Shown piece after piece: positions 48,844-59,140 of a DNA stretch of 59,140 nucleotides (positions within the stretch are counted from its first letter, which is position 1; each line of letters opens with the position of its first letter). The stretch is from Candidatus Dadabacteria bacterium. Lineage in GTDB: Bacteria; Desulfobacterota_D; UBA1144; Nemesobacterales; Nemesobacteraceae. The notes beneath the pieces were generated by a model. It had not been told where the DNA came from and ran no database searches. It worked only from the letters and a program-made list of their open reading frames with translations. Both the position numbers and the translations under genes were made by a program. Location: NCBI GenBank assembly GCA_022827275.1, contig JAJDTG010000009.1, positions 1 to 59,140 on the forward strand, in the 5' to 3' direction.

Positions 48844-49854
48844 ATGAGAACGGATCAATTTGACTATGATCTTCCCCAGCGGCTGATCGCCCAGTATCCG
48901 CTTTCCGACCGCAGTTCCTCAAGACTCCTTGTGGTTGACAGGAAAACGCAGGGTTTTTCCCACGCCAAATTCTCTGATCTGAGGGATTTGCTCCGCCCCG
49001 GTGATCTCATGGTTCTTAACAACACCAGAGTGATTCCCGCGAGGCTTGCGGGACACGTGGAACGAAGGGGGATCGTCGAATTTCTTCTTACCGAGAAAAA
49101 GAGTGAAACGCAGTGGAAGGTGCTTTTTAAAAATCCGGCCAAAGGTCTTCGAGTCTCCCTTGACGGAGGGGTGTCGGGCAGCCTTGAGAGGGAACCCGAT
49201 AAAAGCTGGGCGATAAGGTTCAGCGAACCCGTCGAGCAGATTATCAGCAGTACGGGACGGATGCCGCTTCCTCCTTACATAGCAAGAGAACCCGAACCGT
49301 CGGATAAAAAGACCTATCAGACCGTTTACGCGACCGAGGAGGGAGCGGTTGCTGCTCCGACGGCCGGGCTTCATTTCGACCCGGAACTTCTCTCTGACCT
49401 TCGCGAAAAGGGCGTTCTGATGAGGCATGTCACTCTGCATGTGGGAGAGGGGACTTTCAGGCCCGTAAAGGAAGAGCTTATCGACAACCACGCAATGCAT
49501 TCAGAACGCGTCTCAGTTCCACGGGAGACCGCAGAGGCGATAAACGAAGCCAAAGCGCAGAAAAGAAGGATTGTTTCCGTCGGGACCACGGTTACCAGAG
49601 CCCTTGAGTCGGCAGAGGGAACCGTCGGGGAGATGCGGCCTTTTTCCGGGAGGACGGATCTTTTTATAAAACCTCCCTACGAATTCCGGTTTGTAGATGT
49701 TCTTATAACCAATTTCCATATGCCCCGCTCGACCCTTCTTATGCTTGTCTCCGCGTTCTGCGGCACAAGGGAGCTGGCCCTTGCCGCTTATGAAGAGGCG
49801 AAATCGCGCGATTACAGGTTCTTGAGTTACGGCGACTCGATGATGATAGTGTGA
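48844..49854 (+). CDS. queA: S-adenosylmethionine:tRNA ribosyltransferase-isomerase
   Basis: Transfers and isomerises the ribosyl group of SAM to preQ1-modified tRNA to form epoxyqueuosine. The 336-aa protein shows the QueA blocks FDYDLPQRLIAQYPL, DLRDLLRPGDLMVLNNTRVIPARL, AAPTAGLHFDPELL and ITNFHMPRSTLLMLVSAF. Length is typical. No other queuosine genes are in the window. The TnpB element is inserted downstream, starting about 90 nt after the stop. Confidence 0.96.
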   Translation: MRTDQFDYDLPQRLIAQYPLSDRSSSRLLVVDRKTQGFSHAKFSDLRDLLRPGDLMVLNNTRVIPARLAGHVERRGIVEFLLTEKKSETQWKVLFKNPAKGLRVSLDGGVSGSLEREPDKSWAIRFSEPVEQIISSTGRMPLPPYIAREPEPSDKKTYQTVYATEEGAVAAPTAGLHFDPELLSDLREKGVLMRHVTLHVGEGTFRPVKEELIDNHAMHSERVSVPRETAEAINEAKAQKRRIVSVGTTVTRALESAEGTVGEMRPFSGRTDLFIKPPYEFRFVDVLITNFHMPRSTLLMLVSAFCGTRELALAAYEEAKSRDYRFLSYGDSMMIV

Positions 49855-49863
49855 GGGGTTTCT

Positions 49864-49890
49864 AACCGTGCGCAGCCTCGGTTTGTTTTT
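49864..49890 (+). terminator. possible terminator after queA
   Basis: AACCG and CGGTT (49864-49868 and 49879-49883) close a 10-nt loop, followed by TGTTTTT. The stem is short, so this is a modest candidate for ending the argG-queA transcript. Confidence 0.35.
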
Positions 49891-49944
49891 GTACATTACT
49901 AGGCGGAATTGTTATACTCTTGGGGGAAATGTTTTTGGGATTAC

Positions 49945-51212
49945 AGGCTTGACTAACCTGCTACATCAAAGATGACTAAAGAAATCCGCACAGTAGAGTA
50001 TGTTGTTCTCCCGACTACGAGGGCTAAAGGAAGGAAGATGTTCCAGATAGCGGGAGCCTGTCGATACGTCTGGAATCATTTTCGGGAGAATAATCTTGCC
50101 GATTATCAGGCGTTCAGGAAAGGCAAAGGGCAGAGACCGCAGACCAGCTTTTTCAGCCTTGGTGTGGAGTTTACGAAGCTAAGGCATGAGACGGAGTGGA
50201 TGCAGGAGCTTCCCGCCAATCCCGTCAAGCATACCCTCAAGTATTTTGCAGACGCACTGAAAGAGACGATGGCTGGCAAAAAGGGCTTTCCGAAGCCCAG
50301 GAGCAGAAAGAGAACTGCCCCAAGTTTCACCATACCAAGTTCCGCCGGGGTCAGAATACGAAAGGTCAACGAAAAGTATTCTTCACTTCTTATTCCACTA
50401 GTTGGGTGGGTAACACTGACCCGCAGGGGAGACAATCTCTGGGAGAACGGTACACCAAAACAGGCAGTGCTTCGCCATGACGGGCACAGATGGCGTGCCT
50501 TCGTATTCTACGAAGTAGAAGTGGAGAAAAAGCTGGATGATGGTGAAGTCCTTGGTATTGACATGAATGTCCGCCAGGTTGCCACTTCTGATGGACATTT
50601 CTACTTTCTGCCCGACCTGAAGAAGAAAGAAGCAAGGCGGAAGCGGTATCAGAGAAGGATGGCAAGGCAAATAAAGGGGTCTAATAGAAGGAAGGACACA
50701 AAGAAGAAACTTGCGAAGGTAAGCAGGAAGATAGCCAATGTCCGCAAGAACTGGATTCATCAAACTACGAAAGAAATTGCCGGGAAATGCGGAACGATAG
50801 CTGTAGAAGACCTCAAGGTGAAGAATATGACCACCTCGGCAAAGGGCACTGTAGAAAATCCTGGAAAGAACGTGAGACAGAAGTCAGGGCTTAACAGGGT
50901 AATGCTGGAGACGGCATTTGGGGAAATAAGAAGGAATCTTGAGTACAAATGCGGGAGACTGATAGAAGTGAATCCCGCATACACAAGTCATACATGCTCC
51001 GAATGCGGACATGCAGAAAAAGAGAACCGTAAAACCCAAGCACGGTTCCTATGTGTAAGTTGCGGCTATGCGTCCAATGCGGATACGAATGCTGCAACGA
51101 ATATAAGGCGTCTGGGAGTGGCGCAACTGCACGGGGAGGAGCGTTCTGGTAGTAGACAGACTCCTTTGAGCCGTGAAATTGATGCGAGGCTACACAATGG
51201 CTAGTCAAGTAT
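49945..51212 (+). mobile_element. solo-TnpB (IS200/IS605-related) element
   Basis: The TnpB gene is flanked by an imperfect inverted repeat: AGGCTTGACTAACC at 49945-49958 matches the complement of 51199-51212 at 11 of 14 positions with an identical core CTTGACTA. The right copy overlaps the TnpB stop codon. No TnpA (Y1 transposase) is present, so movement would need a transposase in trans. True ends of IS605-type elements are subterminal hairpins without target duplication, so the limits are tentative. Confidence 0.4.
49972..51204 (+). CDS. tnpB: TnpB, RNA-guided nuclease of an IS200/IS605-type element
   Basis: A full-length 410-aa TnpB. RuvC catalytic residues are intact: Asp197 in LGIDMN, Glu279 in IAVED and Asp371 in NADTNAATN. 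The zinc ribbon is Cys342/345 (CSEC) and Cys361/364 (CVSC). The N-terminal wedge/REC part (VVLPTTRAKGRKMFQIAG...CRYVWNHF) is complete. TnpB proteins cut DNA guided by an RNA made from the element's right end, which helps retain the transposon. The start is ATG 49972; a possible promoter has TATACT at 49913. This copy should be active as far as sequence shows. Confidence 0.95.
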   Translation: MTKEIRTVEYVVLPTTRAKGRKMFQIAGACRYVWNHFRENNLADYQAFRKGKGQRPQTSFFSLGVEFTKLRHETEWMQELPANPVKHTLKYFADALKETMAGKKGFPKPRSRKRTAPSFTIPSSAGVRIRKVNEKYSSLLIPLVGWVTLTRRGDNLWENGTPKQAVLRHDGHRWRAFVFYEVEVEKKLDDGEVLGIDMNVRQVATSDGHFYFLPDLKKKEARRKRYQRRMARQIKGSNRRKDTKKKLAKVSRKIANVRKNWIHQTTKEIAGKCGTIAVEDLKVKNMTTSAKGTVENPGKNVRQKSGLNRVMLETAFGEIRRNLEYKCGRLIEVNPAYTSHTCSECGHAEKENRKTQARFLCVSCGYASNADTNAATNIRRLGVAQLHGEERSGSRQTPLSREIDARLHNG

Positions 51213-51235
51213 ATAAGTCCCAATGTTTTTCTTCA
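51080..51235 (+). ncRNA. predicted omega RNA at the TnpB 3' end
   Basis: By analogy with studied TnpB elements, the guide RNA scaffold is transcribed from the 3' end of tnpB into the right end, and the guide is the flanking sequence just outside it. Here the last 120 nt of tnpB are G-rich and foldable (GGAG near 51140 can pair with CTCC near 51170). The exact ends cannot be set without a covariance model; limits are approximate. Confidence 0.3.
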
Positions 51236-51264
51236 ATCAATTTTCCCCTGGAGGAAGGTAACAG

Positions 51265-52251
51265 ATGGCGACAGTAGTTACGGGAGCGACCGGGTTTATA
51301 GGATCGCACATAACCAGAAAGCTGGTTGAAAGGGGAGACAGGGTCAAGGTTCTCGTCAGAAAGACGAGCAATACTAAAAACATAGATTCTCTCGACGTTG
51401 AGAAGGTTTATGGGGATGTTGGAGATCCGGATTCTCTTAAGGCCGCTTTTTCCGGATGCGACACGCTTTTCCATACGGCTGGGTTCGTGTCGTTTAAGAA
51501 ATCGGACCACCAGAAAATGCTGGATATAAACGTGCGCGGCGCTTCGAACGTTCTCTCCGCAGCCATGGACGTGGGTGTATCAAAGGTTGTCTTCACAAGC
51601 AGCGTAGCCGCCATTGGGGTCGAGCGGGACGGTTCCCCGGTAACCGAATCCACCCAGTACGATCTTTACTCCGATGGAATAGGATATATGAACTGCAAGT
51701 ATCTCGCGGAAAGAGAGGCAAAGAGCTTCAGTGAAAAGGGGCTTCCGGTGGTTATAACGAACCCTTCGGTGGTTCTCGGTGCGGGGGACATCTATCTTTC
51801 AAGCTCGGGATCGGTTCTCTGGTTCTGCAAGAAAAGGTTCCCTGGTTACATGGACGGTACTTTTAACGTTGTCGACGTTGAGGACGTTGCGAACGGGCAC
51901 CTGCTTGCTGAGAAGAAGGGAAAGCCCGGAGAGCGCTACATACTCGCAAACGAGAACGTCAATGTGCAGGGTTACTTCGCCCTTCTTGAAGAGATAACCG
52001 GCATCTCTGCTCCCAAAATCAAGATTCCCTACATATTCGCCTACACCACGGCCTTTCTTCTTGAGAGGGTTCTGGGACTCGGATTTCCGAATTATTCTAC
52101 ACTGGACATCGATTCCATAAAGCTTTCAAGGTATAACTGGCACGCTGACAATTCAAAGGCTGTAAGGGATCTCGGATTCACGGTGACTCCGATCGAGCAG
52201 ACTATACAGAAGACCGTAGAGTGGTTCAGGGAAAACGGTTATCTGAAGTAA
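51265..52251 (+). CDS. NAD-dependent epimerase/dehydratase, HpnA/dihydroflavonol reductase-like
   Basis: A 328-aa extended SDR. The N-terminal Rossmann motif TGATGFIGSHITRKL binds NAD(P), DTLFHTAG follows, and the catalytic YxxxK is YMNCK (about residue 132). The C-terminal region (VVDVEDVANGHLLAEKKGKPGERYIL) is typical of dihydroflavonol-4-reductase-like and hopanoid-associated sugar epimerases (HpnA). GGAGG lies 8 nt before ATG. It sits 13 nt before aroC; no hopanoid genes are nearby to support HpnA. Confidence 0.88.
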   Translation: MATVVTGATGFIGSHITRKLVERGDRVKVLVRKTSNTKNIDSLDVEKVYGDVGDPDSLKAAFSGCDTLFHTAGFVSFKKSDHQKMLDINVRGASNVLSAAMDVGVSKVVFTSSVAAIGVERDGSPVTESTQYDLYSDGIGYMNCKYLAEREAKSFSEKGLPVVITNPSVVLGAGDIYLSSSGSVLWFCKKRFPGYMDGTFNVVDVEDVANGHLLAEKKGKPGERYILANENVNVQGYFALLEEITGISAPKIKIPYIFAYTTAFLLERVLGLGFPNYSTLDIDSIKLSRYNWHADNSKAVRDLGFTVTPIEQTIQKTVEWFRENGYLK

Positions 52252-58958: not shown

Positions 58959-59140
58959 ATGATAAGGACTTACAAGTGCCGTGCCAAGCTGACAAGGTCG
59001 GGTCATGAGGCGTTATCCCAGATATTCAGTATGTGCGCTACACTCTACAACGCCTGTCTTGAGGAACGTATTGATTGCTACAAGAAGACAGGCGAATCTC
59101 GTTCATATTACGATCAGTGCAAAACGCTGACCGAAGTGAG
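58959..59140 (+). CDS. tnpB: second TnpB, N-terminal part, cut by the window edge
   Basis: ATG 58959 opens a frame that stays open to the last base (60 codons plus 2 nt). The translation MIRTYKCRAKLTRSGHEALS... with CATLYNACLEERIDCYKKTG is the TnpB/OrfB N-terminal pattern, distinct in sequence from the copy at 50 kb, so a different subfamily. No stop or frameshift is seen in the part available. Whether the full gene is intact or has a TnpA partner lies outside the window. It is 18 nt behind nadK. Confidence 0.82.
   Translation, partial: MIRTYKCRAKLTRSGHEALSQIFSMCATLYNACLEERIDCYKKTGESRSYYDQCKTLTEV

Follow-up and report, generated by a model that had tools for sequence, protein, structure and literature searches.

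A TnpB gene and its predicted omega RNA in an IS1595-type non-autonomous transposon of Candidatus Dadabacteria

The TnpB proteins of IS200/IS605 elements (ISDra2 type) work with a structured RNA that overlaps the 3' end of their gene, runs to the right terminus of the element and takes its guide from the right flank. Here we describe a tnpB element in a 59,140-nt stretch of DNA from a Candidatus Dadabacteria bacterium (the window; contig C7 of a 1.77-Mb genome assembly that is 95.7% complete), which resembles these systems in having a predicted RNA that overlaps the tnpB 3' end and reaches the right terminus, together with a candidate guide from the right flank, but differs from them in its terminal inverted repeats (TIRs), its 8-bp target-site duplication (TSD) and its IS1595-like ends, with no Y1 or serine TnpA alongside. 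On sequence comparison the element has IS1595-type inverted-repeat ends, an 8-bp TSD, empty sites in sister genomes, a tnpB gene under purifying selection and a predicted structured RNA extending to the right terminus. We consider it probable (roughly 0.7) that it is an IS1595-type non-autonomous transposon moved in trans by an IS1595 transposase, and that its TnpB re-cuts emptied sites so that the element is kept.

Several described systems come close, according to the excerpts of the articles cited here by PMC number. Bao and Jurka described bacterial TnpB-only elements without TIRs and TSDs (PMC3627910), and Fanzors occur in several eukaryotic transposon superfamilies, among them Mariner, Sola, MuDr and other TIR/TSD elements (PMC3627910, PMC10711439). 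Like the Fanzor-bearing transposons, some of which are non-autonomous, the window's element would carry a TnpB-family nuclease as TIR/TSD cargo; unlike them, its nuclease is a bacterial TnpB and its putative partner belongs to IS1595, Fanzors being eukaryotic and of a different nuclease clade. The IS1595 family (ISXO2-like) is related to eukaryotic Merlin (PMC8101967), and its members are usually flanked by an 8-bp TSD (PMC8101967, PMC12561309). The element shares this TSD length and the GGGA../..TCCC terminal repeats of autonomous copies found in this genome and elsewhere in the genus, whereas tnpB and its RNA stand in place of the transposase gene. For an IS607 element, a fixed right-flanking nucleotide was shown to belong to the RNA scaffold (PMC10711439); a near-fixed base follows the right end here as well, while transposase type, TIRs and TSD differ from IS607. 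In the excerpts of the open-access literature consulted, including papers naming both TnpB and IS1595, no TnpB is placed inside an IS1595 element. TnpB itself is known, and so are TIR transposons with TnpB kin in eukaryotes; it is the bacterial combination that appears new in this literature, in which a DDE cut-and-paste transposon appears not to be known as a carrier of TnpB in bacteria.

Boundaries, termini and protein of the element

A sequence-only reading of the window had proposed an intact TnpB element flanked by a 14-nt imperfect inverted repeat. This repeat is real, pairing at 14 of 20 positions, but extends over more bases and has a more outward position than proposed, and it forms the terminus of a transposon with an 8-bp TSD. 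The octamer AATGTTTT is present on both sides, directly outside TGGGATTACAGG.. on the left and ..TATAAGTCCC on the right. Comparison with relatives, which the earlier reading had suggested, revealed that the spacer between queA and the epimerase gene (hpnA) is free of the insert in all seven same-genus genomes examined (G001-G007), where it keeps one copy of AATGTTTT or a diverged form. The flanking duplication and the empty site in 7/7 relatives therefore delimit the element to the 1,286 bp listed in Table 1. The genome has three further close copies, whose common sequence begins near the start codon and runs to ..TATAAGTCCC or a similar end. As tnpB is the only gene inside and a DDE transposase gene is absent, we class the element as a non-autonomous passenger and not as an IS1595 insertion sequence; given its TIR termini and TSD, it is of IS1595 (DDE) type and not an ordinary TnpB element.

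The same architecture recurs across insertions. We scanned jointly for a 16-nt inverted repeat and an 8-nt direct repeat around 87 tnpB open reading frames (ORFs), with 300 mismatched pairings as the null (mean 16.2, maximum 20). Half of the 32 copies of the genus (24 and 8 from two TnpB families, fam1 and fam2) scored 20-23, with 12 reaching at least 21, and a copy in a Caldilineaceae (Chloroflexota) metagenome-assembled genome (MAG), L094, scored 21 with the TSD AAAAATAT matching at 8/8. L138, a TnpB locus from another family of the order, was tried as an IS1595 element and rejected with a null-level score of 16. In a table of 39 insertions, the left-end starts of which were placed by hand from the sequence, as were the flanks of eight autonomous elements, the mean TSD match was 6.31/8, compared to 2.88 on permutation (standard deviation 0.19, maximum 3.46 in 2000 permutations); 29 insertions matched at 6/8 or better, 25 at 7/8 or better and 17 perfectly. 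Shifting the left boundary by 1-6 bases lowered the mean to 2.4-2.7. The table takes 22 of 27 fam1 copies, leaving out L164 and L166 (truncated), L132 and L057 (left end unrecognised) and L146 (orthologous to L134), and 17 of 20 fam2 copies, leaving out L219 and L012 (left end unrecognised) and L014 (truncated).

The termini point to partners within the genome. Only four sites lie within one mismatch of the right-end 15-mer AAGTATATAAGTCCC, and all are element ends: two bound a tnpB copy on contig C15, one is the right end in the window and one that of an IS1595 element on contig C8. The last-named element encodes an intact 308-aa transposase (PF12762, 141 bits; NF033547, 186 bits) and has a perfect TSD. 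The window's left end agrees at 12/15 positions with that of an IS1595 element in G006 and at 7/15 with that of the C8 element. A second IS1595 element, on contig C18, has a 24-nt repeat that on visual inspection is similar to the repeats of fam2 tnpB copies. Transposases matching PF12762 and NF033547 are present in the genome and its relatives; seven autonomous IS1595 elements have 17-20 TIR matches out of 20 and a perfect 8-bp TSD, and in an eighth (L285) the TSD became visible after a one-base manual shift of the boundary. No clear TIR with TSD was found for L289, which has a transposase, or for L290-L292, which are terminus matches without one. The combination found is that of IS1595-type termini with an 8-bp TSD, and not the lack of TIRs and TSDs that goes with IS200/IS605 or IS607. 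The neighbours of tnpB are queA and the epimerase gene, with no Y1 or serine TnpA next to it. The PF00239 serine resolvase profile has no match in this genome, in a search whose control gave matches in 10 of 14 genomes, and the single Y1_Tnp protein (PF01797) is encoded on another contig, C21, from which it could in principle act in trans; the usual partners of TnpB are thus missing or not alongside in the 95.7%-complete assembly.

The protein matches NF040570 (guided_TnpB; 229.5 bits, residues 15-380), Pfam OrfB_IS605 and Cas12f1-like_TNB, and, over nearly its full length with E about 1e-25, the solved structures PDB 8bf8 and 8h1j, in keeping with the RuvC-zinc ribbon nuclease of IS200/IS605 TnpB (ISDra2 type). 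D197, E279 and D371, which we take from the family motif to be the RuvC triad, and the zinc-ribbon cysteines 342, 345, 361 and 364 are kept in 25/25 intact close copies, in agreement with the complete triad and zinc ribbon of an intact TnpB claimed at the outset. The closest TnpBs are those of same-genus genomes and of Candidatus Dadabacteria MAGs, in which 11 loci share 77-88% identity with it. The median ratio of nonsynonymous to synonymous substitution rates (dN/dS) relative to the window copy is 0.089 (residues 5-345), by which measure tnpB is under purifying selection. The gene is genuine by these comparisons and looks functional as a predicted nuclease.

A predicted omega RNA, its guide and a left-flank motif

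A candidate omega RNA had been put forward for this element, with covariance as the way to check it, and comparison among copies bears the candidate out. At residues 345-403 of TnpB, synonymous codons agree at 0.788 among 25 intact copies, compared to 0.600 elsewhere; this stretch was selected after a first look at the data, yet none of the upstream 59-codon windows exceeds 0.632 and 0/10000 column draws reach 0.788. The right ends of 27 copies fold alike into the branched hairpin P2, and the closing pair of hairpin P1 is U-A, U-G or C-G among copies. In the model-fitted alignment, which is biased towards structure, both sides change in 6/15 pairs (3.1 in shuffled alignments) and in 17 cells (5.1 shuffled); for helix 3 the paired share of cells is just 56%, since its short variants do not align in register with the long ones. 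The covariance model R1 recovers L138 (E 2.2e-6), a locus with a 50%-identical TnpB that was not used in building it; there, an A-U pair of the outer stem is replaced by G-C. Over 13 genomes, R1 gave 19 matches, all at known tnpB copies or fragments; there were no orphan omega RNAs among them, with 150 of 320-868 first-look candidates scored per genome. R1 has no convincing match to the fam2 RNA (the best are L094 at E 0.024 and L259 at E 0.034). At the gathering cut-off, nothing in Rfam matches near the element, and for 49800-51400 there is no match even at E<=5. Synonymous constraint, paired cells and R1 matches together provide good comparative evidence, although not proof, for an omega RNA at the right end that overlaps the 3' end of tnpB.

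The downstream flank had been named as the current guide, starting near 51213. The right flank does fit the empty site, but the start lies at 51222 (or 51223), about 9 nt away from the one proposed. Besides its full identity to the G001 site (Table 1), the candidate guide matches the empty sites of G007 at 24/25, of G002 at 23/25 and of the other four relatives at 18-22/25 positions. The base following the right end is A in 21/22 fam1 copies, and being nearly fixed, it may belong to the RNA scaffold.

Furthermore, the left flanks share a motif. Fam1 insertions have R|A (purine at -1, A at +1) on the left in 20/22 cases and mirrored on the right in 2/22, and fam2 insertions have G|W on the left in 17/17 and mirrored in 2/17, whereas R|A is found at 3/8 left and 5/8 right flanks of the autonomous IS1595 insertions (Fisher tests against the autonomous left side: p 0.007 for R|A in fam1, p 0.006 for G at -1 in fam2). 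We read the left-flank motif as the imprint of the target-adjacent motif (TAM) of TnpB.

Table 1. Coordinates of the element, its parts and its neighbours in the window
Feature	Position	Strand	Remark
Whole element, 1,286 bp, IS1595-type termini, non-autonomous	49936-51221	+	TIR and TSD; empty site in relatives
Left TSD copy AATGTTTT, 8 bp	49928-49935		Single copy in empty site of sister genomes
Left TIR TGGGATTACAGGCTTGACTA, eroded	49936-49955	+	14/20 complementary to right end
tnpB ORF, 410 aa	49972-51204	+	RuvC D197/E279/D371, zinc ribbon
Raised synonymous-codon conservation (RNA overlapping ORF)	51004-51180	+	0.788 vs 0.600 in rest
Predicted omega RNA hairpin P1, GAACCGT/ACGGTTC	51024-51048	+	189/189 cells paired, 27 copies
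Predicted omega RNA 3' module (covariance model R1)	51127-51221	+	
Predicted branched hairpin P2, CACGG..CCGTG	51130-51175	+	Compensated pair in L138
Predicted hairpin P4, adjoining right end	51190-51204	+	84% of cells paired; 2/3 pairs with both-side changes
Right TIR ..TCAAGTATATAAGTCCC	51202-51221	+	14/15 like right end of IS1595 element on contig C8
Right TSD copy AATGTTTT	51222-51229		First bases of candidate guide
Candidate guide (TSD and right flank)	51222-51246	+	25/25 identical to G001 empty site
Promoter-like box upstream of epimerase gene, now upstream of element	49890-49918	+	Visually similar in the window and seven relatives
queA	48844-49854		Intact ORF
HpnA-like epimerase gene	51265-52251		Intact ORF

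Proposed mechanism and competing explanations

In the mechanism we favour, an IS1595-family DDE transposase from elsewhere in the genome (e.g., the 308-aa C8 copy, possibly that of C18) would bind the termini and move the element by cut-and-paste, as the common termini and the TSD length suggest. Read-through RNA from tnpB would be processed to the omega RNA, with the duplicated target and the right flank from 51222 as guide; RNA processing from tnpB mRNA has been reported for TnpB (PMC10278001, in excerpt). TnpB would then recognise the emptied site by guide match and the left-flank motif R|A and cut it, and homologous repair from the sister chromosome would restore the element copy. The kept insertions would be only those whose emptied site TnpB can cut, leaving the motif as an imprint. 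The window copy lies downstream of a conserved-looking promoter-like box, so that host transcription could produce both tnpB mRNA and guide; a promoter scan on its own did not lift this box (49890-49918) above chance. The earlier statement that the insertion leaves queA and the epimerase gene undamaged holds for their ORFs; the element does, however, separate the box from the ribosome-binding region of the epimerase gene.

A number of observations weigh against this reading. The window's own left end is eroded (14/20 paired; 7/15 like the C8 left end), so this copy may be immobile now, and the erosion is also why its joint-scan score of 18 falls inside the null range. Ten of the 39 insertions have fewer than 6/8 TSD matches; when three mismatches are allowed, the genome has about as many matches to the terminus pattern as to its reversed control (34+22 vs 29+28); G007 has tnpB elements but no PF12762 match; and L138, the closest relative outside the genus, is not inside an IS1595 element. 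As to the RNA, P1 shows no more both-side changes than shuffled alignments (1 vs 0.9), and the window RNA folded alone reaches only z = -1.8. R|A and G|W were named as motifs after inspection of the sites, with manual boundaries and only eight autonomous controls. Swapping them gave pairings that are less side-biased (fam1 G|W, 9 vs 2, p 0.065; fam2 R|A, 11 vs 4, p 0.039). When either side is allowed, R|A occurs at 6/8 autonomous IS1595 insertions, and the transposase's own preference may thus account for part of the motif. In L191, a further autonomous element that has other termini and lay outside the test, R|A is by eye on neither side.

This last set of counts bears on an alternative that we regard as unlikely, though less so than the other two, namely that the element is an IS1595-type passenger in which TnpB plays no part in retention, as a hitchhiker or regulator, and that the left motif reflects an orientation-dependent target taste of the transposase. 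The 6/8 autonomous sites fit it, as do two elements with IS1595-like ends and unrelated genes (L249, L254) and the IS1595-family elements with passenger genes known from excerpts of PMC8496243. It sits poorly with the lack of side bias in the autonomous copies (three left, five right, n=8) compared to the tnpB elements (20 vs 2 and 17 vs 2) and the Fisher values given above, and with the RuvC triad kept in 25/25 copies, the dN/dS of about 0.09 and an RNA conserved up to the terminus. The motif could otherwise merely reflect sense insertion at ribosome-binding site or start regions, chosen since the host gene then drives tnpB and guide RNA: several sites are indeed at a ribosome-binding site or ATG, including 5/17 fam2 sites exactly between ATG and codon 2. 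We think this improbable, as the motif persists at sites with no start codon in -6..+16 (fam1, purine at -1 in 12/13 and A at +1 in 13/13; fam2, G in 11/11), starts having been sought mechanically so that some may be missed.

Hardly credible by comparison with the retention mechanism is an ordinary TnpB-only (IS1341-like) relic of IS200/IS605 or IS607, with inverted repeats that arose by chance or represent subterminal hairpins. The protein is a standard TnpB, one Y1 protein is encoded on contig C21, and TnpB-only elements are numerous (PMC3627910); the same source, as excerpted, has them without TIR and TSD, whereas the TSDs here stand about 18 standard deviations above permutation, the site is empty in 7/7 relatives, IS1595 transposons have similar ends and the genome has no serine resolvase match.

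Spread, side observations and meaning

In a tree of 82 TnpBs, the TIR-bounded copies fall into two strongly supported, separate clades, about 28% identical: fam1, sister to L138 (support 100/100), and fam2 together with the Chloroflexota L094 (100/99). The program flagged L138 and L094 as long branches, and the fam1 row L057 is without a recognised TIR. Two captures of TnpB by IS1595-type elements are the simplest reading of this tree. L094 itself, a fam2-related TnpB (38% identical), is bounded by IS1595-like termini, and its 8-bp TSD, a perfect one, comes after GATG; as it resides in a Chloroflexota MAG, the association is not confined to Dadabacteria.

One fam2 subclade (L222, L013, L140, L244, L157 and L014) is inserted exactly between the start codon and codon 2, at five sites, and its right end reads GAGGT..ATG ACT ATA ATT CCC in frame, so that the host gene would be read as a MTIIP-, MTISP- or MAIIP-fusion. 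The fusion frame is open in 6/7 copies examined (not in L258), and the host genes, by eye, are hemL, GST, a CDC48-like gene and an ABC gene. The very end of the window (58959-59138) holds a 5' fragment of a fam2 tnpB. Contig C25 likewise stops in such a fragment, and this repeat may therefore be a point where the assembly breaks.

At L138 (G022:C4, 369-539 and 548-1753), the omega-RNA-like 3' module is directly followed by three 39-nt direct repeats, two identical and one at 72%, with an exact 66-nt spacing. This looks like a small CRISPR array, which would make L138 a CRISPR-linked sister of the transposon TnpBs.

Other cargo was seen between IS1595-like ends: a lipoprotein-like gene in L249 (G005:C13:258256-259269; TSD match 6/8) and a small membrane protein in L254 (G007:C7:6205-7024; 7/8), with no transposase among the longest ORFs listed. 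In both, which lay outside the test of flanks, R|A is on neither side by eye. The pattern GTATATAATTCCC was discarded as an element marker, since it also marks promoters among the matches listed, and its inverted pairs around a thiD-like gene (L250-L253) are not elements (TSD matches 2-3/8). Two IS1595 elements from two genomes, L183 (801-2774; next to a mnmE-like gene by eye) and L293 (1797-3585), adjoin the palindrome GTTTCACGTGAAAC, which to us resembles a ParB-binding parS site; sitting beside the same palindrome, the two are perhaps not independent.

Whether the observations join into a single picture seems to us about an even bet. In that picture, IS1595-type DDE transposons would have captured TnpB independently at least twice, TnpB would act as a retention nuclease with its TAM imprinted left of nearly every insertion, and the ATG|A subclade would be near-silent. 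If true, the ATG|A element would land between start codon and codon 2, bring its own in-frame start and stay near-silent in genes such as hemL.

The near-fixed A after the right end offers a hint of the way in which the RNA of a TnpB adjusts to a new terminus, and the 39 insertions provide candidate natural TAM data for compact nucleases with a predicted RNA, guide and TAM. The IS1595-type tnpB elements look like a bacterial counter-example, and suggest that TnpB perhaps needs no Y1 or serine partner. By analogy, TnpB would serve a DDE transposon in the way that is thought for IS605 elements.
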